From a virus, in IMG/VR virus record IMGVR_UViG_3300046535_001734, positions 1 through 60,798 of that record: a stretch of 60,798 nt of DNA; one strand, 5' to 3'. Both the position numbers and the translations under genes were made by a program. A model generated the notes under the pieces. The model made no database searches. It had not been told where the DNA came from and saw nothing but the letters and a program-made list of their open reading frames with translations. Positions within the stretch are counted from its first letter, which is position 1. Each line of letters starts with the position of its first letter. Below, piece after piece: positions 3,901-59,095 of the stretch.

Positions 3901-5004
3901 CTATACCGAGGGAACCTCCAGTCCAGCGCTGTCCGCGTACTCGTTCATCACACGCAGCGCCTTCACAAACGCACCCGTCGGCATCTTCCGGATGAGGTGC
4001 TGTGCAACGAAGTTCCCGTCGTCGTAGGGCAGGGTCCGCGGCGCAGGGTCCCCGCCGTCCTCGGCCTGCTGGACGGTCCGCGGTTCAGGGATCGGCTGCT
4101 CCGCCAGCACCACCGCGGGCGCATGGAGGTCCGGTGCGGTCTCCGGGACCGGAGCAGGGCCCGGCATCGGATCGGCACCTGCTGGCTTGGACTTGGAGAC
4201 GTCCGGAATTATCACGCCGTGATATTCGGCGGGCCCGGCCGAGCGTTCCGGCGCCGGGTATGGCGCGGGTTGCGGCGAAGCCGACCGGGCGGCCGCCTGG
4301 CTTTGAGCGGCTTCGGCGCGCGCGTCGGCCTTCTCAACCTGCTCCTGCGGGGTCAGCTTCCCGAGGTTGCGGACGTGCTCCACCCTGCGTGCACCGGTGA
4401 CGAGGTCCTTCTGCAGCTCGGGGGTGAGCTTCAGCAGGGACAGCTTGGTGGAGAGCGTGGCCTGCGGGATCCCGAGCCGTTTCGCGGCCTTGAGCTGGGA
4501 CCCGTAGTGGTCCACCAACTGCTTGAGCGCGTGGGCCTCCTCGAGGTCCGTCATGTCGTCGCGGTGGTAATTCGCGATGAACGCGGCCTCGAGGAGGGTC
4601 TCGTCGGTGGCCAGCCGCGAGTTGTCGACCCTGACCGGGATGGTGGCCAGTCCGACGCGGCGGGAGGCCTCGAGGCGTCGGTGGCCGTCGATGACGACGT
4701 ACTGGGCTCCGTCGTCGATGTCGTCGGCGCGGGCGGCCCGGTCACGGAGATAGGCCTCTGTCGTTCCGACGACGATGGGCAGGATGATGCCGACCTGGCG
4801 GACGGACTCCACGGTCTCGTCGAGGTTGCGGAGGTGGTTGCGCGGGTTGTCGGGGTTGTCGCTGATCAGCGTGACGGGCAGTTCGGTGATGGCCGCGGTC
4901 GCTGCCGCGTCCCCTCCTATGGCGCTGTTGATGGCGTCGCGCCGTGGGCTGCGCCGGGCCGCGGCGAAGGCGGGCGCCGGGCCGAGGGTGTCGGCCTTGC
5001 TCAT
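3901..5004 (-). CDS. parB: ParB-type partition protein, 367 aa
   Basis: This is the centromere-binding partner of ParA. The N-terminal ParB/Srx fold includes the signature IDGHRRLEASRRVG (equivalent of the GERR box) and a segment of the form ETVESVRQVGIILPIVV. A helix-turn-helix follows around residues 172-205 (LKAAKRLGIPQATLSTKLSL). The C terminus is Pro/Ala-rich and variable. Its ATG overlaps the parA stop as ATGA, giving a coupled parAB operon closed by the hairpin at 3841-3884. A parS-like palindrome lies inside the coding sequence at 4210-4224, with two more upstream of parA. It is inferred to bind these sites to segregate the element in its plasmid state. Confidence 0.93.
   Translation of the reverse strand: MSKADTLGPAPAFAAARRSPRRDAINSAIGGDAAATAAITELPVTLISDNPDNPRNHLRNLDETVESVRQVGIILPIVVGTTEAYLRDRAARADDIDDGAQYVVIDGHRRLEASRRVGLATIPVRVDNSRLATDETLLEAAFIANYHRDDMTDLEEAHALKQLVDHYGSQLKAAKRLGIPQATLSTKLSLLKLTPELQKDLVTGARRVEHVRNLGKLTPQEQVEKADARAEAAQSQAAARSASPQPAPYPAPERSAGPAEYHGVIIPDVSKSKPAGADPMPGPAPVPETAPDLHAPAVVLAEQPIPEPRTVQQAEDGGDPAPRTLPYDDGNFVAQHLIRKMPTGAFVKALRVMNEYADSAGLEVPSV
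4210..4224. promoter_or_regulatory. parS-like palindrome, copy inside parB
   Basis: TATCACG-C-CGTGATA, 7-bp perfect arms with a central C, is identical in its core to the two sites upstream of parA. The flank ATTCGGCGGG is also partly shared. Inferred ParB-binding centromere site. Confidence 0.75.
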
Positions 5005-6164
5005 CGGGTGGCCCCCTTCGCGACCTGCCGCATGGCCTCCGCCTGGTCGGACAGGGGTGCGTACGACAGCAGCGGCATCCGCTTGCGGACCGCTTCCCGC
5101 TGTTCCTTCAGATCACCGATGACGGCCAGGACTCTCGGGTCACCGATGGCCTTCCAGCTATCCAGGGAGGAGGTGGCGACGTAACCGCGGCGCGAGTCGT
5201 ACAAATTGACGACCAGGCCGAGGTAGTCGACGTCCAGGCTGAGGTCTTCGCACAGGGCTTCGATCTGCTGGTCGAGCATGCTGTACGCGGTGGCGGAGGA
5301 GTCCTCGGCGAGGACGGGAATGATGACGCCGGACTTGCCCTTGGCCTCGTTGCGGCGGCGGCGCGCGTAGTAGAGGGCGGCGTCCATGGCGATGCCGAGG
5401 CTGGGCGGGCAGTCCACGACGATGACGTCGTAGTCGGCCTCGAGGGGACGAAGTGCCATCTCCAGGGCGACTTCCTTCTGGAAGCCTCGCTTGTTCGCGG
5501 ACAGGACGGCGATCCTCGAGTCGAGGAGGAATCCGTCGAAGCAGGCGGGCAGTACGTGCAGTCGCTTCTCGAACCGCGGATCGTCTATGACCACGACCAG
5601 GTCGCGGAGGTCTCCCTTGTCCTCGCCGCACATGTGGGAGACGAGGCTGTCGTGGTCGGGTGCGATCTGCAGGACACCGAGTTGCTCGCTGAGGTGGCCT
5701 TGCGGGTCGTAGTCGACGAGCAGGACGCGCTTGCCCTGCTCGGCGTACGCCTGGGCGACGCCGGCGGAGATGGCGGTCTTGCCGACGCCGCCCTTCTGGT
5801 TGCAGACGACCTTGCGTTCGGCTTCTTCGTCCTGGGCGCCGTGCTGCGGGGAAGGGTTGGCGTCCAGCCACATCCGGACCGACTGCGCGAGGCCCTGGGT
5901 GTAGGAGACGGAGCGTTCGGTGCAGGCGTCCTTGAACGCGTCGTACTGGCCGGACGGGAGCCATGTGGAGAACGAGCGGGCGCCGGCCGTGTCGATGTCC
6001 GGGCTGATGCCGGGTTCGGCGCGCCATTGGGCGATGCCCGCGGTGACGGCGTCCTGGATGTCCAGGCCGAGCTCGGCGGCGCGGACCTTGAGTGCTTGTT
6101 GGAGCGCCGAGGGCAGCTTCGACGCTACCTTTTCCCGGTCTCCTTGGAGATATGGAGAGGCCAT
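5001..6164 (-). CDS. parA: ParA-type partition ATPase with RHH-like N terminus, 387 aa
   Basis: The deviant Walker A motif KGGVGKT is at residues 124-130, a ParA motif LLVDYDPQGHLSEQL near 148-162, and Walker B DVIVVDCPPS near 246-255. This makes it a ParA/MinD-family ATPase that moves ParB-bound DNA. Unusually, the first 100 residues contain two ribbon-helix-helix-like stretches (LPSALQQALKVRAAELGLDI and WLPSGQYDAFKDACTERSVS), so the protein may bind DNA by itself and repress its own operon, as type Ia ParA proteins do with a different N-terminal domain. Two parS-like sites lie directly upstream. Confidence 0.93.
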   Translation of the reverse strand: MASPYLQGDREKVASKLPSALQQALKVRAAELGLDIQDAVTAGIAQWRAEPGISPDIDTAGARSFSTWLPSGQYDAFKDACTERSVSYTQGLAQSVRMWLDANPSPQHGAQDEEAERKVVCNQKGGVGKTAISAGVAQAYAEQGKRVLLVDYDPQGHLSEQLGVLQIAPDHDSLVSHMCGEDKGDLRDLVVVIDDPRFEKRLHVLPACFDGFLLDSRIAVLSANKRGFQKEVALEMALRPLEADYDVIVVDCPPSLGIAMDAALYYARRRRNEAKGKSGVIIPVLAEDSSATAYSMLDQQIEALCEDLSLDVDYLGLVVNLYDSRRGYVATSSLDSWKAIGDPRVLAVIGDLKEQREAVRKRMPLLSYAPLSDQAEAMRQVAKGATR

Positions 6165-49603: not shown

Positions 49604-51226
49604 CTATCGGCGGCCGCGGAGGCGTTGGTCGCGGTAGTTGGAGGTGCCGAGGCCCTGGGTGGAGGGGTCGGCGAGTTCGGTGAGGGCGTGGACGGCGGCG
49701 TCCATGCGGTCGGGTGAGTCCATGCCGGGGATCCAGGTGACCATCTGGCCCTCGAGGCGGGGGAATTCGCCGAGGTGGTGGACGAGGCCTTGGGCGTAGA
49801 GCTGGGCGATGGGTTCGGCGCGTAGCCGTTTGCCTTGCTTGGCGTGGACTTCGATGATCGATGGCATGAGGAGGCCGCGGGTTTCGCCTCGTTCGGCAAG
49901 CTCTTTCCAGGCCTGGCGGATGATCTGCTTGGCCATGTCGCCGCCGAAGTTGGCTTCGACGACGATGGCGTCGGCCTGGTACTCGATGGCGAGTTGGCAG
50001 GCGGCGAGGCCCCAGGTGTCGGCGCCCATGCGGTCGGATGCGTCGGCGAGGAGGTAGAGGTGGCCTTCGCGGTCGCGTCCTGCTGCGCACAGGCCGGCTT
50101 CGTCGTTTCCGTCTCCTTCTCCGCCGGCGTGGTCGACGGCGACGATGCTGCGGGTGAGGTCGATGCCGCGGAACGCCATGGGGGTGATGCGGTGGTCGGT
50201 GATCCATGGCCATTTCCACACGCCGCCCTCGAGTGGGCGGGGTTTTTGCATGTAGAGGGACCACCAGACGCGTTCCCCGACGGCGCGGCGGATCTTCTGG
50301 AGGGCTTTGGTGCCGTAGCGGATGGGCCACAGGGGGCGGCCGATGTCGCGGCCGAGGGCGTCGTTTTCGCTGTCGGCGATGGCGGGGAGGTCGAGGATGG
50401 TCCAGTCGTCGGCGTCTTCTCCGGCGAGGATGCGGCCGGCGAGGTCCTGTTCGTGCCAGCGGGTCTGGATGACCAGGATGGATCCGCCGGGTTCGATGCG
50501 GGTGTTGAGGACGGATGTCCACCAGTCCCACAGGCGGCGCCGCATGGTGGGGGATTCGGCGTCGGCGGCGTCTTTGATGGGGTCGTCGACGACGGCGAGG
50601 TGGGCGCCCTTGCCGGTGAGGCCGCCGCCGACGCCTGCGGTGACGAGGCCGCCTTCGAGGCGTTCGCCGGTGTCGGGGTCGGCGAGGTCGAACCGGTTCG
50701 CCGCTTTGCTGCCGGAGTGGAGGGCGAGGCCGATCTGGGGGCCGTAGGAGACGATCGCGTCGCGGATCCACCGTCCGTGGTCGTCGGCGAGGTCCGCGGA
50801 GTATGAGGCGATCATGACGCGGTGGTCGGGGTGCCTCGACAGGTACCAGAGCGGCGCCCACCGGGCCGCACGCCGGCTTTTGCCGTGCCGCGGAGGCATG
50901 GTGATGAGGACCTTGCGGGGCCGGCCGCGGGCGATGTCGCGGAACACCTGGTCGATCAGGTCCAGGTGGCGGGCCTGCTTCTCCTTCCCGTCGGTGAGGA
51001 TCGCCGACATGGCGCCCGGCGACCGCTTGAGGGCCATGTCGCGTTCGACCCCGGCGAGGACGGTGCGGACCTCTCCACTGGCCCGGCAGGCGATATGGCG
51101 GCGCTGAGCCCGGTTCAGGCGCCGGTACTGGGCGACCAGTTGGAGTAGCTCCTCCGCTCCCTGGACGACGTCATCAACGTCCTCGTCGTGCCCCGGGCCG
51201 ACGTCAGGTGTCGTCGCTGTGGTCAT
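49604..51226 (-). CDS. Terminase large subunit, 540 aa
   Basis: ATPase motifs are Walker A PPRHGKS (111-117) and Walker B LAVVDDP (210-216); the arginine region and SILVIQTRWHEQDLAGRILA follow. The RNase-H-like nuclease domain shows VAVDHAGGEGDG, DAIVVEANFGG and RMDAAVHALTELAD with the three acidic residues. It powers DNA packaging and cuts the concatemer. It overlaps the small subunit gene by 23 bp. Confidence 0.93.
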   Translation of the reverse strand: MTTATTPDVGPGHDEDVDDVVQGAEELLQLVAQYRRLNRAQRRHIACRASGEVRTVLAGVERDMALKRSPGAMSAILTDGKEKQARHLDLIDQVFRDIARGRPRKVLITMPPRHGKSRRAARWAPLWYLSRHPDHRVMIASYSADLADDHGRWIRDAIVSYGPQIGLALHSGSKAANRFDLADPDTGERLEGGLVTAGVGGGLTGKGAHLAVVDDPIKDAADAESPTMRRRLWDWWTSVLNTRIEPGGSILVIQTRWHEQDLAGRILAGEDADDWTILDLPAIADSENDALGRDIGRPLWPIRYGTKALQKIRRAVGERVWWSLYMQKPRPLEGGVWKWPWITDHRITPMAFRGIDLTRSIVAVDHAGGEGDGNDEAGLCAAGRDREGHLYLLADASDRMGADTWGLAACQLAIEYQADAIVVEANFGGDMAKQIIRQAWKELAERGETRGLLMPSIIEVHAKQGKRLRAEPIAQLYAQGLVHHLGEFPRLEGQMVTWIPGMDSPDRMDAAVHALTELADPSTQGLGTSNYRDQRLRGRR

Positions 51227-51707
51227 CCAGTGCGCCTTCGTCGCCCTCGTCGGGGGCTTCGTCGTCCTCGGGATCGGGGTCGCCTGCTGCTCCGATCAGG
51301 CTGCGGAGTTCGGCGATGCTGGCCTGGCTGATGGGGACGGCTCCCCCGCCGGGCCCGGACACCTCGGCGCGGATGGGTTCGGCCACCCCGTACAGGCGGA
51401 TCCGTTCGGCGATGAGCCGGCGGGCCGCCTCGACGGCCTTGAGGTCGCCCTTGAGCGCTTTGGGCCACACGGCGGCCAGGAGGCGTTCGAAGCGGGCTCC
51501 TTCGACCTCGCGCAGGTTCTCGACTGCTTCCTTCTCTTCCAGCCGGTTGCGCTGGATGGCGCGCCAGAAGTCTTTGCGGGCAGCGCCGTCGTCGGCGTAG
51601 TCGAGGCGGTCGGCGATGGCTTCGAAGTCCATGCCGGCGAGCTTCAGTGCGATGAGCTGCTTGCGTCGCTGCGCGGTGACGGCCTGCTGGGCTTTGGATG
51701 CGGGCAT
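51204..51707 (-). CDS. Terminase small subunit, 167 aa
   Basis: The N-terminal HTH region (RKQLIALKLAGMDFEAIADR) recognises the packaging site, a central coiled coil (LEEKEAVENLREVEGARFER) drives oligomerisation, and the segment ARRLIAERIRLYGVAEPIRA is characteristic of actinophage TerS. The C-terminal tail is acidic. The ATG overlaps the stop of a 29-codon gene (TGATG). Confidence 0.85.
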   Translation of the reverse strand: MPASKAQQAVTAQRRKQLIALKLAGMDFEAIADRLDYADDGAARKDFWRAIQRNRLEEKEAVENLREVEGARFERLLAAVWPKALKGDLKAVEAARRLIAERIRLYGVAEPIRAEVSGPGGGAVPISQASIAELRSLIGAAGDPDPEDDEAPDEGDEGALDDHSDDT

Positions 51708-53228: not shown

Positions 53229-53257
53229 TAGGTTGTCCATATGGACGAGACAAGCTT
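53229..53257 (+). promoter_or_regulatory. Dyad operator over the ASCH gene start
   Basis: TAGGTTGTC-N11-GACAAGCTT spans the ATG at 53241, so a bound protein would block initiation directly. Confidence 0.6.
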
Positions 53258-53681
53258 TCAGGATGCCCTGTTCGCCACGGACACCGAGCCCACGCCGTAC
53301 GTGCTCACCGTGAAGCAGCCCTGGGCGTGGGCCATCATCCACGCGGGCAAGGACGTCGAAAACCGCAGCAGGCCTGTCAACTACCGGGGCAAGCTGCTCA
53401 TCCAGGCTGGCAAGAGCTACGCCCCCGAGGGTGACAAGTACCTGCGCGATCTGGGCATCACTCCCCCGGCCGACCTGCCGCGCGGCTGCATCATCGGCTC
53501 TGTCGAGGTCGTCGGCTCCACCAGCCGGTCCACCTCCGAGTGGGCCATGGACGGATACCAGCACTGGCTGCTCGCCGACCCGAAGCCTGCTGCGCAGCTC
53601 CTGCCGTGCCGGGGATCGCTGAGCATGTTCCGCGCCCCCGAGGGTTGGGAGCAGGCGTTCACGTCGCCTTCGGGGGCATGA
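53241..53681 (+). CDS. ASCH-domain protein, 146 aa
   Basis: The family signature is clear: VLTVKQPWAWAIIHAGKDVE, then NYRGKLLIQAGKSY, LPRGCIIGSVEVV and HWLLADPKPAAQLLPCRGSL. ASCH domains have a PUA-like fold and bind RNA or modified bases; some hydrolyse acetylated cytidine. In phages they occur with DNA base-modification genes. It is convergent with, and overlaps by 23 bp, the ABC-GNAT gene. Family firm; role here inferred. Confidence 0.82.
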   Translation: MDETSFQDALFATDTEPTPYVLTVKQPWAWAIIHAGKDVENRSRPVNYRGKLLIQAGKSYAPEGDKYLRDLGITPPADLPRGCIIGSVEVVGSTSRSTSEWAMDGYQHWLLADPKPAAQLLPCRGSLSMFRAPEGWEQAFTSPSGA

Positions 53682-54750
53682 ACTCGAAACTGCGCGTGAG
53701 AAGGCGTCGGGGGTCGGAGTAGCGCTTCCTCAGCGAGCCCGTGAGGCTCTTGCCGGGCTTTCCTGTACTCACCTTCCCGGTCTCGCGCCAGCGTGGGGAG
53801 CGCACGCAGTAGGCGATGACTGCCGGATGGGCGACAACTCGCCTGTAACGGCAGCCTTGCTGGTACAAGTGCTGGCCGATCCATTCGGAGATACGGCCGC
53901 TGATCCCCAGCCCCTGGTAGTCGGGCAGGACGACGGACCGGTGGTCCATCTTGATGTTCTTCGCCTGGGCGTGCGGGAAGTGCATGTAGGCGCTGAAGGC
54001 TACGAGGTCGTCACCGATGAAGCCGCCGAAGCAGCGTGCGGAGCGGTTCAGGTCGGCGCTCAGATAGTGATGGCGGCGAAACAGCGGCCAGACGGTGTGA
54101 TCGACCTGGTGGATGCGGAGTTCGAGCGCGGGGTGGGGTTGAACCTGCCTCCACGCGAAGGAGTTGGCCGCGACGTCGAACACCCAGTCGGGCTGGAGCC
54201 AGTCGGTGACGTCGTAGTGGCAGGTGACGGCGACGAACTGGCGGTCCTGGCGGCGCACTGCCTTTTGCACCGTGTGGGAGGCGACCTTGGCGACCTGACG
54301 GTCGACGACCGAGGTGAACTCGTCGACGACGACCAGGCCGTCGGTCTCGGCGAGGGAGCGGGCGATGGAGGCACGGAACGCCTCGCCGTTGGACAGCGTG
54401 TGGTGCGGGCGCATCCACGCGGGCGGTGAGCCGAGGCCGACCGAGGTGAGCAGACCGATGATGTCCTTGATGCTCATGCTGGCCGGGAAGTCGTCGAGCA
54501 GCGACGCGTCCGGGGACCATACATAGTTCGCGGCCATCTCCTCGGGCCACACGTGCCGGGCCAGGGTGGACTTGCCTGCTCCGGAGGGTCCGACGATGAG
54601 ACCGACGTTCCAGGGCCGGTCCTCGATGGGCAGGTTCGCGTCGAGGGTGTGGCCGGCTTTCTGCTCGATCGGGACGTCGAACATGCCGGCCATCTGCAGG
54701 ACGCGGGCGGAGCTGCAGACGGTGGTGCTGACGTTGACTTGTGCGCGCAT
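53659..54750 (-). CDS. ABC-type ATPase fused to GNAT/Mom-like acyltransferase domain, 363 aa
   Basis: Residues 45-190 are an ABC ATPase without membrane segments: Walker A GPSGAGKST (54-62), signature-like LSNGE (119-123), Walker B DGLVVVDE (137-144) and switch His178 in AVTCHYD. Residues about 208-325 are GNAT-like with the motif A block RSVVLPDYQGLGISGRISEW and an upstream HHYLS segment like that of Mu Mom-type enzymes. Proteins of this design (COG2401-like) occur in phages and archaea. With the adjacent ParB-fold and ASCH genes it forms a candidate DNA base-modification or anti-restriction unit. Domains firm; chemistry unknown. Confidence 0.78.
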   Translation of the reverse strand: MRAQVNVSTTVCSSARVLQMAGMFDVPIEQKAGHTLDANLPIEDRPWNVGLIVGPSGAGKSTLARHVWPEEMAANYVWSPDASLLDDFPASMSIKDIIGLLTSVGLGSPPAWMRPHHTLSNGEAFRASIARSLAETDGLVVVDEFTSVVDRQVAKVASHTVQKAVRRQDRQFVAVTCHYDVTDWLQPDWVFDVAANSFAWRQVQPHPALELRIHQVDHTVWPLFRRHHYLSADLNRSARCFGGFIGDDLVAFSAYMHFPHAQAKNIKMDHRSVVLPDYQGLGISGRISEWIGQHLYQQGCRYRRVVAHPAVIAYCVRSPRWRETGKVSTGKPGKSLTGSLRKRYSDPRRLLTRSFEFMPPKAT

Positions 54751-54765
54751 GCCGGGGTGTCCCTT

Positions 54766-55341
54766 CTATGCCATGAGGGCGCGGACGCGGCGCCCTTCGG
54801 CGGCCAGCCGCTCGAGGAGTTCGGTCTGCTGCTGCTCGTCCAGGCATTCGACGATGACGCCCCACGTTGCTTCGGTGTCCTCGATGGGGGCGTCGCCCTC
54901 TTCGGGGAGCTGCGGGGGGACGATCAGTGCGGCGACGTCTTCGTCGGTGTATCCGGTGCCTTCGTAGTCGCCGTCGAGGTAGGAGATGAGTTCGGCGAGG
55001 GCGTCTTTGTCGTTCTCTCCGAGCTCGGCGGTGCGGTTGTCGGCGAGGTTGATCCGGCGGGCGGTGTTGTCGTCGCAGACGACGACTTCGCAGCGGGCTG
55101 TCTCGTGCCCTTCGGCGGCGAGCCCCTGCATGGTGTGGTTGCCGGCCAGGACAATGAGGGGGCCGTCAGGGATTTCCCGGACGACGAGCGACCTGTACTG
55201 GCCGTTGCGGCGGAGGGATTTGCGGATGGCGTCGACGTCGCCGCGTTTCGCGTTGCCGGGGAACGGGGTGAGTTCATCCAGGGGGATGTCGGCGGTGCGG
55301 ACGTAGGTGACGCCGGCGTCGGAGTCGGTGCTTTCGGTCAT
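54766..55341 (-). CDS. ParB-fold protein of the modification module, 191 aa
   Basis: A ParB/Srx-type N-terminal domain is seen without the ParB HTH: IPLDELTPFPGNAKRGDVDA, RRNGQYRSLVVREI, and LAGNHTMQGLAAEGH in place of GERR. It continues with INLADNRTAELGENDKDALA. This is distinct from the partition ParB at 3901-5004. ParB-like domains of this type may act as nucleotide-dependent enzymes or DNA-binding parts and often accompany phage DNA-modifying genes. It is 15 bp upstream of the ABC-GNAT gene in one operon, under a late-gene element. Confidence 0.8.
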   Translation of the reverse strand: MTESTDSDAGVTYVRTADIPLDELTPFPGNAKRGDVDAIRKSLRRNGQYRSLVVREIPDGPLIVLAGNHTMQGLAAEGHETARCEVVVCDDNTARRINLADNRTAELGENDKDALAELISYLDGDYEGTGYTDEDVAALIVPPQLPEEGDAPIEDTEATWGVIVECLDEQQQTELLERLAAEGRRVRALMA

Positions 55342-56375: not shown

Positions 56376-58664
56376 CTACTCCCCTGCGTCCGGGCCGGGT
56401 CCCGGGCCGTACTTGCCGCGGACGGCCTGGCCGCTGCCGGGCATGCGGTGGATGCGGCCTTCCTTGACCATCCGGGACAGCCGGTTCTCGAGCGTGGAGG
56501 AAGTCAGCCCGGTGAGGCGCTCGATGTCGTCCTTGTGCAGGTAGTTGACCTCCTCCCCCATCGGGTCGGCGGCGTCCTCGAGGACGGTGAGGATCTTTTC
56601 GTCTGCGTTGGGCCCCTTCGGCGGTCCGGTGAGGGTGGCCCCGCCGCCGGCCTGTCCCGTCTCGCCGTCTTCGTCGTCCGGGAGGATGGAGGTCCGGCCG
56701 ATCTCGTCCGCGCGCTCGAAGTCCGGCCAGTCAGCGGGGTGGGCGATGGCGGTTTCGTCGATGTAGGGGGCGGCGGACTCGAGGATGAAGTCGCGCATCA
56801 TCTCGGCGGCTCCGCCGGGGCCCAGGGTGTAGCCGAGCCCGTAGGTGGATTCGGGGTCCTGGAGGGCGACGCTCTCGTCGTAGATGAGGGGCCGGTTGAC
56901 GTCCCAGGCCGGGGGGATCTGGCCGGGGTCGACGCCTTCGAAGCCGGTGGTGACGAGGTTGGACTGGTCGGAGTCGGTGCGGAGCATGACCAGGGAGCCG
57001 CCCTGGATGACGTTGGTCCGCAGGGCGGTTGAGCCGCCGAGCTTGTCGGCGTTCACGGCCTGGTTGACGATGGTGAGGATGATGCCGAGGGAGCGGGCCT
57101 TCGCGGCCAGCGCCTCCACGATGATCTTTGCTTCCTTGCGGTGGTCGACCAGCTCGGACAGCGGGACGTGGGCTTCGTCGAGGATGACGCGGACCCAGGG
57201 GCGGTCAGGGGTGGCGATGAAGTTCTTCATCTTCAGCCGTGCGGACTCGGCGATCCGCCACTGCATGAGGCCGTAGGAGACGCGCAGGGCGTGCATGCAC
57301 TGTTCTTCGCCGATGCCGGAGTAGCAGGCCATGGTCTCGACGTCGGGGTTGGAGGAGCCCTTGGGGTCGGCGTAGATGATGGCGTGGCCGTTGACGTGGT
57401 CGGCGAGGGCGACGATCTGGATGAGGCCACCCTTGCCGGATCCGGTGACGCCGGCGATGAAGAGGTGCTTGGCGCCGAGCTTGGGGTCGACGAACTGGAT
57501 GCGGGCGGGGAATCCGGAGACGTGCTGGCCGATCTGGACGTAGCCGCCCTTGGAGATTTTCAGGACGTGGGTGCCGGGGAAGGGGACGCCCTCCTTGAGG
57601 GGGTTGTGATTCATCTTGCGGACGGTTCCGCGGCGGGGGTCTCCGGGGACGGGTGCGTAGGAGCAGAGCAGGGTGTTGGTGCGGAGCGCTCCGGCGAGGG
57701 CTGCGCGGTCGGGGACGGGGAGTTTGTCGAGGTTCTCGCCAGCGACGACGTAGGCGACTTCACCGCCGGTGTTGGGGTCGGTCTGGACGTCTTCGAGGTG
57801 GGTGCCGGCCATGACGCCGCCGGTGCGGGCGGCCCATTTGCGCCAGGCGCCCTGGAGGGTGCTGGTGTCGAGTTCGGCGGGCGGCGCAAGGTTGACGGTG
57901 ATGTGGCGTTCGCCGGAGTGGGCGCCGTCCTCGAAGGTGATCCAGGCGGCGCGGACCTGGTAGGGGGTGGACTGGTAGGCGCTGGAGACGGTGTCGGCGG
58001 TGACGGTGACGGACTGGCCGGCGGGGGCGGTGATGGTGCCTTTCCAGCGGGTCGTGGACAGGGTGCGGATCTCGATGTTCTGGCTTTTGTGGGTGCCGTT
58101 GTCGAGGTTGGAGATGATCTGGTGCCAGCGGTAGGCGATCTGTTCGGCGGGGGTCAGCGGTCCGGCGGCTGCCTTGGGTGCGGGGCCGACGGGGGTGGGG
58201 GCGGGCTGTTTGGGGGTGCGGACGCGGCCGAGGACCTTGCGGAGTTTGAGGGGGACGAAGCCGACGGCGGCCAGCCAGCCGAGGGAGACGATGCCGGGGA
58301 TCGGGTTGGCGGCGATGTCGGCGACGCCGAGCATGAGGGCGTCGGATCCTTCGCCGCCGAGGAGGGCGCCCATGGCGAGAGCGACGCCGCTGGTGAGGGT
58401 GGAGATGGCCATGGGGGTGCTGTGCGCGCGGAGGATGTCCGCGGGCAGGTGGCGTTCGAGGCCGGGCGGTAGCCGGTTCATGTAGGTGGCGGTGGTGAGG
58501 GCGGCCGCGCCGCCGTAGGCGATGGTGGCGAGGAAGGTGGCGCTGGCGTCGAGGAGGGGGATGCCCGCGCCGATGGCGATGGGGGCGGCGCTGGTGGCGA
58601 TGGCGATGCCGCGTTCGGTGCTGCTGGCGGCCGGCCTGCTGGCGGTGTTCGTGTTGCTCGTCAT
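56376..58664 (-). CDS. TraB/FtsK-like DNA translocase, 762 aa
   Basis: The N-terminal 150 residues hold several hydrophobic segments (IAIATSAAPIAIGAGIPLLD, MAISTLTSGVALAMGALLGG, IPGIVSLGWLAAVGFVPL). The motor domain has Walker A GVTGSGKG (405-412, Gly in place of the usual Ser/Thr) and Walker B VRVILDEAHV (491-500). The C-terminal winged helix (HKDDIERLTGLTSSTLENRL) resembles the DNA-reading gamma domain. Streptomyces plasmids transfer double-stranded DNA with TraB proteins of this type, so this may mediate conjugation. It is the second indication of a plasmid lifestyle beside parAB. Confidence 0.82.
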   Translation of the reverse strand: MTSNTNTASRPAASSTERGIAIATSAAPIAIGAGIPLLDASATFLATIAYGGAAALTTATYMNRLPPGLERHLPADILRAHSTPMAISTLTSGVALAMGALLGGEGSDALMLGVADIAANPIPGIVSLGWLAAVGFVPLKLRKVLGRVRTPKQPAPTPVGPAPKAAAGPLTPAEQIAYRWHQIISNLDNGTHKSQNIEIRTLSTTRWKGTITAPAGQSVTVTADTVSSAYQSTPYQVRAAWITFEDGAHSGERHITVNLAPPAELDTSTLQGAWRKWAARTGGVMAGTHLEDVQTDPNTGGEVAYVVAGENLDKLPVPDRAALAGALRTNTLLCSYAPVPGDPRRGTVRKMNHNPLKEGVPFPGTHVLKISKGGYVQIGQHVSGFPARIQFVDPKLGAKHLFIAGVTGSGKGGLIQIVALADHVNGHAIIYADPKGSSNPDVETMACYSGIGEEQCMHALRVSYGLMQWRIAESARLKMKNFIATPDRPWVRVILDEAHVPLSELVDHRKEAKIIVEALAAKARSLGIILTIVNQAVNADKLGGSTALRTNVIQGGSLVMLRTDSDQSNLVTTGFEGVDPGQIPPAWDVNRPLIYDESVALQDPESTYGLGYTLGPGGAAEMMRDFILESAAPYIDETAIAHPADWPDFERADEIGRTSILPDDEDGETGQAGGGATLTGPPKGPNADEKILTVLEDAADPMGEEVNYLHKDDIERLTGLTSSTLENRLSRMVKEGRIHRMPGSGQAVRGKYGPGPGPDAGE

Positions 58665-58714
58665 GGCGGATCTCCTTCGCGGGGCTGCGGGCGGGGTGGG
58701 GGGGGGTGGAGGTT

Positions 58715-59095
58715 CTACTCCTGGGTGAGCCAGTCGTTGTCGACGTCGTGGATGCCGGAGGCCGGGGAGGCGTTGACGGCTTCGTGGATGCCCTGGTGGG
58801 TGGCGACGGCTTCGTCGTGGCTGGTCCGGGCGAGGCGGGTGGTGGTGTCGCCGGCGGAGGCGTACCGGATGGCCTGCTCGGACACCCCGGTCATGGTCTT
58901 GGCGAGTTGGTGGGTCTCTCCGACGGTCTCGGTGTCGACGCGTTTGGCGGAGATCCCGTCGGCGATCCGGCTGGTGTCGGTGGCTTCCTGCTCGATGAAC
59001 TGGGCCCATCCGCGGAGGGCTTCGGCGTCGGCGAGGATCTCGTTGCCGAAGTCGGTGACGTCTCGGACGAACTGCTCGTAGCGGGTGTCGGTCAT
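58715..59095 (-). CDS. Transfer-region helical protein, 126 aa
   Basis: The ATG at 59095 follows GGAAG by 8 nt; a GTG at 59104 overlapping the preceding stop is possible. The product is a polar helical protein (RYEQFVRDVTDFGNEILADA) with coiled-coil character and no Cys. It lies between the TraB-like and the large low-complexity genes in one operon and is likely an accessory of the transfer machine. Confidence 0.65.
   Translation of the reverse strand: MTDTRYEQFVRDVTDFGNEILADAEALRGWAQFIEQEATDTSRIADGISAKRVDTETVGETHQLAKTMTGVSEQAIRYASAGDTTTRLARTSHDEAVATHQGIHEAVNASPASGIHDVDNDWLTQE

Follow-up and report, generated by a model that had tools for sequence, protein, structure and literature searches.

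The ParB-fold gene and its ABC-GNAT partner

We analyzed the 60,798-base IMG/VR virus record IMGVR_UViG_3300046535_001734 (the window, to which the coordinates in Table 1 refer), derived from a soil phage and having a GC content of ~70%, and focused on positions 53241-55341, where an earlier reading of the letters (the original prediction) had placed a three-gene module for DNA base modification or anti-restriction. Three open reading frames (ORFs) were present at these positions, encoding a ParB/Srx-fold protein, an ABC ATPase fused to a GNAT acyltransferase (ABC-GNAT) and an ASCH-domain protein. The ParB-fold and ABC-GNAT genes are consecutive on the same strand and separated by a 15-nt gap. 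The ASCH gene lies tail-to-tail with ABC-GNAT, with the 3′ ends overlapping by 23 bp, and this convergent position on the opposite strand puts it outside the ABC-GNAT operon. The proposed module was therefore retained as a co-directional pair and not as a three-gene unit.

Profile searches confirmed the fusion of the two domains. ABC-GNAT aligned to its PHROG family over residues 4-358, a full-length family match; the ABC_tran model matched at E = 1.3e-7, passing the Pfam cut-off, and the Pfam GNAT model (PF00583) matched the C-terminal domain in all 27 diverse members of the family (best E = 1.5e-10). The Walker A motif, the LSNGE signature, D143-E144, the SVVDR D-loop and H178 were invariant or nearly so in 39 viral relatives. 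Conserved residues of the GNAT domain included W221, F224, H228-Y229, R271, P276-D277, Q279-G280, G282, H308-P309, S318 and W321, among which R271, H308-P309 and H228-Y229 were invariant among ABC-GNAT relatives. The acyl-CoA loop fits the GNAT pattern Q/R-x-x-G-x-G/A (QGLGIS, which ends in S). As read from the sequence, the catalytic motifs of both domains are intact. AlphaFold2 modeled the whole protein with a mean predicted local distance difference test (pLDDT) score of 88.1 and a predicted template modeling (pTM) score of 0.82, and the GNAT domain alone with values of 84.3 and 0.76, respectively; Foldseek matched the whole-protein model to ABC nucleotide-binding domains. PADLOC returned only partial matches confined to the ATPase part (mad3, E = 1.7e-12), and these were not counted as membership in a defense system. 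A profile scan of cellular genome contigs yielded at least one full-length relative among the matches listed, a planctomycete locus (L133) with the gene order ParB, ABC-GNAT, terminase-like.

The upstream protein matched PHROG 723, "ParB-like", at E = 5e-44, and its family profile matched solved N-domains of ParB, Noc and Spo0J at E = 1.9e-15. Neither a helix-turn-helix (HTH) in the protein nor an adjacent parA gene was found, so it lacks the marks of a partition ParB, as the original prediction had stated for the HTH. Viral ABC-GNAT sequences formed 27 clusters at 60% identity; in 22 of these the next gene upstream was a co-directional ParB, in most cases overlapping ABC-GNAT by 4 or 22 nt. 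Annotated phages carrying the pair include Jace, Ligma, Pmp13, LE3 and EastWest.

Table 1. Genes, domains and motifs of the ParB/ABC-GNAT locus, followed by other genes of the window
Feature	Position	Strand	Evidence or remark
ParB/Srx-fold protein, 191 aa, first gene of the pair	54766-55341	-	PHROG 723; no HTH
Shared ParB-fold N-domain, residues ~14-132	54946-55302	-	common to ABC-GNAT-, Mom- and methylase-linked ParBs
ParB C-terminal tail, C.DE..Q...L....G....R	54769-54894	-	ABC-GNAT-type tail; proposed docking element
ABC ATPase fused to GNAT acyltransferase, 363 aa	53659-54750	-	PHROG 11143, E = 1e-96; AlphaFold2 model
ABC ATPase domain, residues 1-192	54175-54750	-	conserved motifs; Foldseek to ABC nucleotide-binding domains
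Walker A GPSGAGKS	54568-54591	-	within the ABC domain
GNAT domain, residues 196-363	53662-54165	-	Pfam GNAT; Foldseek to RimI and other GNATs
HHYL motif	54061-54072	-	GNAT domain
PDYQGLGIS acyl-CoA loop	53899-53925	-	GNAT domain
ASCH-domain protein, 146 aa	53241-53681	+	convergent with ABC-GNAT; PF04266
KDVENR motif	53349-53366	+	ASCH gene
Large terminase subunit	49604-51226	-	PHROG 38, E = 8e-102; Terminase_6N, E = 1e-11
Probable small terminase subunit	51204-51707	-	by position; overlaps large terminase gene; PHROG 645, E = 5e-26
ParA	5001-6164	-	partition pair with ParB at 3901-5004
Partition-type ParB, parA-linked	3901-5004	-	second ParB of this virus, likely partition protein
FtsK/SpoIIIE-like protein	56376-59009	-	

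Exchange of ABC-GNAT with Mom and matching of ParB tails

In related phages, the slot downstream of ParB was also found to hold the DNA-modifying enzyme Mom. A scan with the Mom protein of Microbacterium phage Antuna collected 80 loci, and ParB was directly upstream of Mom in 73 of them; it was absent in 3 loci with upstream sequence, and 4 were too short upstream to tell. Arthrobacter phages EastWest (ABC-GNAT) and Wyborn (Mom) showed the same gene order with the enzyme swapped: the upstream gene was 67% identical between them, ParB 62% over 118 aa, the HTH 71% and the sliding clamp 54%, and four further flanking genes at 41-88% identity kept their order. Swapped pairs with homologues on both sides were also identified in IMG/VR (loci L063/L198, L039 and L059/L168, L029/L143, L035/L169) by homology of the flanking ORFs, some short matches of which may be spurious frames; long flanking matches included 86% identity over 432 aa and 89% over 408 aa. 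The ParB-linked slot is common to ABC-GNAT and Antuna-type Mom in these syntenic phages, a shared context that does not define a family.

The ParB proteins paired with the two enzymes differed at their C-termini. Those preceding ABC-GNAT end in C.DE..Q...L....G....R, whereas those preceding Mom end in a zinc-knuckle-like CPxCGxxF, and a CxxC tail was present in 69/73 Mom ParBs compared to 0/79 ABC-GNAT ParBs. Tail profiles sorted all 79 ABC-GNAT ParBs and all 73 Mom ParBs correctly, these being the sequences used to build them; with half the set held out, 382/385 were correct. A tree of the ParB N-domain, built without the tails from few columns and containing many weak forks, needed 22 enzyme switches compared to a shuffled mean of 30.9, at least 7 of the switches being unavoidable given the supported branches, indicating that the two enzymes do not mark two ParB clades. 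Supported branches provided 7 independent pairs; the tail followed the enzyme in 6.9 of them on average and never ran against it (sign test, median p = 0.016). The near-absence of mismatched combinations suggests a functional, and probably physical, match between tail and enzyme.

A survey with two ParB queries covered 157 viral loci, which were best hits and hence not independent, with domain calls made on cluster representatives. ParB was fused to another domain at 80 of these loci: representatives of fusion clusters of 53 and 6 carried PF01555 methylase domains, a cluster of 18 was represented by a tandem ParB with two ParB-fold domains in one ORF (L309:2486-3805), and there were 3 other fusions. 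Directly downstream of unfused ParB we found ABC-GNAT (18 loci), Mom (10), Tet_JBP-type enzymes (10), TET-associated or HMC glucosyltransferase-type enzymes (10), TGT-type enzymes (8), histidine phosphatase-cytidylyltransferase fusions (7), C5 methylases (2), a PAPS reductase (1) and unclassified genes (8), with the contig ending in 3 cases. A recognized type of DNA-modification enzyme was present at about 100 of the 139 loci lacking ABC-GNAT (59 methylase fusions plus 10, 10, 10, 8, 2 and 1 downstream genes), and the tail classes were largely recovered for six partner types. The histidine phosphatase-cytidylyltransferase fusions (e.g., L235:3273-4241) are possibly another modification-pathway enzyme, and a HalD-like 2-oxoglutarate dioxygenase directly behind a ParB domain (L328:2986-3681) may be a DNA hydroxylase or halogenase.

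Relation to Mom, variant architectures and genomic context

The original prediction had described the motif A block of the GNAT domain as Mom-like, and this part of it found no support. The acyl-CoA loop is canonical in ABC-GNAT (PDYQGLGIS), whereas phage Mu Mom has a DxxPRNSES stretch instead. The Mom Pfam model (PF25680) did not match the C-terminal domain of the window protein at E ≤ 10, and matched 2 of 27 ABC-GNAT relatives, with a best E of 0.019, which is not significant. HHalign of ABC-GNAT against a diverse Mom alignment, the figure used here, gave a non-significant probability of 1.9%, and comparison with a near-identical Mom set was likewise not significant; the local alignment bracketed the H-Y region in both families. 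Pfam and PHROG matching returned no significant Mom membership. The profile search proposed with the original prediction thus placed the domain within GNAT and outside Mom; membership of ABC-GNAT in the Mom family was not significant by Pfam, PHROG or HHalign, and we claim no specific homology. In a viral structure library, a Salmonella phage Mom ranked 38th (E = 1.1e-4) among other GNATs. Our best reading is that ABC-GNAT would work like Mom without being Mom.

Several phages carry the same components in other arrangements. In Acinetobacter, Rhizobium and Pseudomonas phages the order is ParB, a separate ABC gene, a GNAT-like PHROG 886 gene and terminase; PHROG 886 is a separate GNAT-like family that aligned to the GNAT domain of ABC-GNAT with an HHalign probability of 94.8%. 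These loci share components and order upstream of terminase with the window, and differ from it in having separate genes, an extra ParB and a larger GNAT protein. In a Rhizobium phage, a gene with a Tad2-like (Thoeris anti-defense) domain lies between the ABC and PHROG 886 genes (L098:5612-5914), consistent with an anti-defense neighborhood. ABC and GNAT occupy different frames in Streptococcus, Oenococcus, Lactococcus and Enterococcus phages, with a −1 frame overlap of 103-136 nt (L089:5549-5654, L095:4549-4651, L086:4537-4639, L091:5414-5549). Reading through the ABC stop in the −1 frame gives the beginning of the GNAT domain with its HYL motif, which makes a programmed −1 frameshift joining the two a likely candidate mechanism; a slippery heptamer A AAA AAG is located inside the L091 overlap. 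On the Delftia IncP plasmid pKV29 (L096:5139-6682), ABC-GNAT has no ParB, and the gene after it belongs to the formyltransferase family. Database labels at such loci are misleading: PHROG 886, named "ABC transporter ATP-binding subunit", is GNAT-like, and the "ABC iron siderophore transporter" of Javan and Oenococcus phages (L086, L089) is the ABC half of ABC-GNAT.

The window ASCH protein alone gave a weak Pfam match (E = 0.039), and the domain assignment of the original prediction was secured by its family: PF04266 matched 13/13 relatives and the family profile matched ASC-1 ASCH structures at E = 1.5e-22. With one locus taken per cluster, ASCH homologues were found in 9 of 20 clusters at ≤1.2 kb from the module and in either orientation, compared to 3.0 expected (P = 3e-5), and were not found in the other 11. 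ASCH is an accessory to the ParB/ABC-GNAT pair.

Outside the locus, the minus strand of the window encodes the large and a probable small terminase subunit and portal-like, major head and tail-fiber-like proteins. The PHROG 645 label "Rnase E" looks wrong, as the matched gene sits where a small terminase subunit would be expected. Another contig, 97,174 bases long, was identical across the 11,052 bases compared, showing that the virus is bigger than the window. The ParA/ParB pair and the FtsK-like gene suggest a phage-plasmid lifestyle, and, since a separate partition pair is present, the ParB-fold protein next to ABC-GNAT need not serve segregation.

Interpretation of the ParB/ABC-GNAT cassette

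ABC-GNAT and Mom share one slot, and the ParB domain accompanies many classes of DNA-modifying enzymes; together these support the DNA-modification or anti-restriction role first suggested for the locus. We propose, with a probability of about 0.7, that ParB and ABC-GNAT form a phage DNA-base modification cassette in which ParB docks or targets the enzyme and ABC-GNAT acylates a base and protects the DNA; such a cassette would probably attach a chemical group to phage DNA as protection. The ParB N-domain would handle DNA or nucleotide and supply the DNA contact or recruitment, and the C-terminal tail would bind its own partner enzyme. The GNAT domain would move an acyl group from acyl-CoA onto a base amino group in DNA. 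ATP-driven dimerization of the ABC heads may bring two GNATs to the DNA, or position or open the duplex, and would in this way gate the transfer. The acylated phage DNA would then resist host nucleases, and ASCH, with its PUA-like fold, would be an optional nucleic-acid reader in part of the family.

Several observations weigh against this proposal. In Foldseek searches with the GNAT domain, RimI-type and other GNATs ranked best and Mom was missing from the best 50 solved structures listed. The Mom-specific residues E-L-x-R, S124, D149 and Y159-Q-A were matched only in part: H228-Y229 and R271 are invariant in ABC-GNAT, E-L and Y-Q-A are absent from it, and the residue correspondence itself was drawn from non-significant alignments. 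Aeromonas phage PX29 (L088; GU396103.1, 36309-36881) carries both a Mom homologue and ABC-GNAT, so that the two are not strictly alternative, and no ParB was detected next to its ABC-GNAT; nor was an adjacent ParB detected in 5 of the 27 ABC-GNAT clusters. The arginine of Box II (P motif, GxxR) is replaced by threonine (GNHT) in the window ParB; this position 70 is R in 30/48 relatives and T in 13/48, including the window. As this arginine was required for NTP binding in the ParB-fold proteins tested (PMC12704722), this branch may no longer form an NTP-dependent clamp. Finally, tail and enzyme adjoin on the DNA, and easy co-transfer could explain part of their matching.

The nearest solved folds are RimI and other GNATs acting on proteins or small molecules. 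They would suit acylation of a protein target, be it host RNA polymerase, a ribosomal protein, terminase or some host nuclease, in aid of host takeover or anti-defense, with ParB and ABC recruiting the enzyme to DNA-bound targets, and PMC7824862, in its statement on phage GNATs, describes some, such as Rac, as acting on host RNA polymerase. A protein acylase would not be expected to trade places with Mom in one slot, or to share its ParB domain with DNA methylases, TET and TGT-like enzymes, and we consider this role unlikely. The frequent position of the pair just upstream of terminase genes would also fit packaging or DNA-end processing, in which the ABC head and ParB act beside terminase and acylation is regulatory. 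However, the partnership is kept in Jace and EastWest, where the pair does not directly adjoin the gene for the large terminase subunit, and Mom fills the same pre-terminase slot, making a packaging function quite improbable.

Acylation of free nucleotides or RNA, with ASCH as the N4-acylcytosine amidohydrolase partner, receives equally little credence from us. YqfB-type ASCH proteins hydrolyse N4-acetylcytidine and N4-acetyldeoxycytidine (PMC6972931, PMC9599836), and ASCH matches do cluster at the module. However, of the YqfB catalytic set, which also includes Glu74, the residues Lys21, Thr24 and Arg26 (KxxTxR) correspond by motif to K37, E40 and R42 of the window protein: Lys and Arg are kept, and the Thr24 equivalent is Glu in the window protein and most of its relatives. 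A YqfB-type amidohydrolase or deacylase activity was dropped because the catalytic Thr, the nucleophile, is absent, and ASCH is more likely a nucleic-acid reader than a hydrolase, judging by these residues; that ASCH was not found in 11 of 20 clusters also speaks against this reading. A transporter or solute ABC system, as implied by annotations such as the siderophore label above, would account for the resemblance of the ABC head to transporter nucleotide-binding domains, but no membrane partner was found, and the GNAT domain is fused or frame-linked and the protein ParB-paired in many phages; we give a transport role practically no weight.

The proposed DNA-base acylation has a precedent, and here the original prediction, which found no described pathway for the arrangement, stood in part. 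An ABC-ATPase-coupled GNAT was predicted to acylate a DNA nucleobase in jumbo phages, with pT24 named (PMC7824862, citing Iyer 2013). That statement concerns the same pair of domains, and pT24 also matches here; as worded there, it includes no ParB partner, tail code or Mom exchange. Our literature search, the reach of which did not extend to the Iyer 2013 prediction itself, found the ParB pairing, the Mom exchange and the tail code unreported. Base acylation by ABC-GNAT is thus already predicted, and the ParB pairing, the Mom exchange, the tail-enzyme matching and the range of other enzymes (methylases, TET/JBP, glycosyltransferases and TGT-like enzymes) that this ParB domain precedes or is fused to are new here. 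Phage Mu Mom (PF25680; PDB 8bv8, "Methylcarbamoylase mom"), which makes an adenine N6 acyl modification, shares with ABC-GNAT the GNAT fold, an H-Y motif in the region that non-significant alignments place as equivalent and, for Antuna/Wyborn-type Mom, the ParB-linked locus. It differs in that ABC-GNAT gives no significant Mom profile match and has a canonical acyl-CoA loop, a fused ABC ATPase and a ParB tail without the zinc knuckle. Phage fusions of a ParB-fold domain with N6/N4 methyltransferases (PMC12704722), and DpdB, a ParB-like ATPase acting in the Dpd 7-deazaguanine system (PMC12839542), likewise couple a ParB fold to a DNA-modifying enzyme, and fusions with PF01555 methylases occur within the ParB domain family studied here. 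In contrast, the ParB of the window is encoded by its own gene and has a partner-type tail, and its enzyme is ABC-GNAT.

A broader version of the proposal, which we put forward tentatively and at somewhat less than even odds, is that DNA-modifying enzymes are interchangeable and dock on one shared platform, the phage ParB-fold domain. In this scheme each enzyme class would have its own ParB tail, the tail would predict the enzyme, tail and enzyme would be swapped together at one locus, and ABC-GNAT would write a new, ATP-dependent acylated base.

If the cassette acts as proposed, phages of many hosts would carry an uncharacterized DNA base modification with an ATP-requiring writer, in a swappable module testable in isolated phage pairs, of which the Arthrobacter phages EastWest and Wyborn are one. 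The abundance of ParB-like genes in phages would then also make sense: their products would serve alongside DNA-modifying enzymes and not in partition. Should the tail rule be true, partner enzymes would be predictable, and new ones could be found, from the ParB sequence alone.

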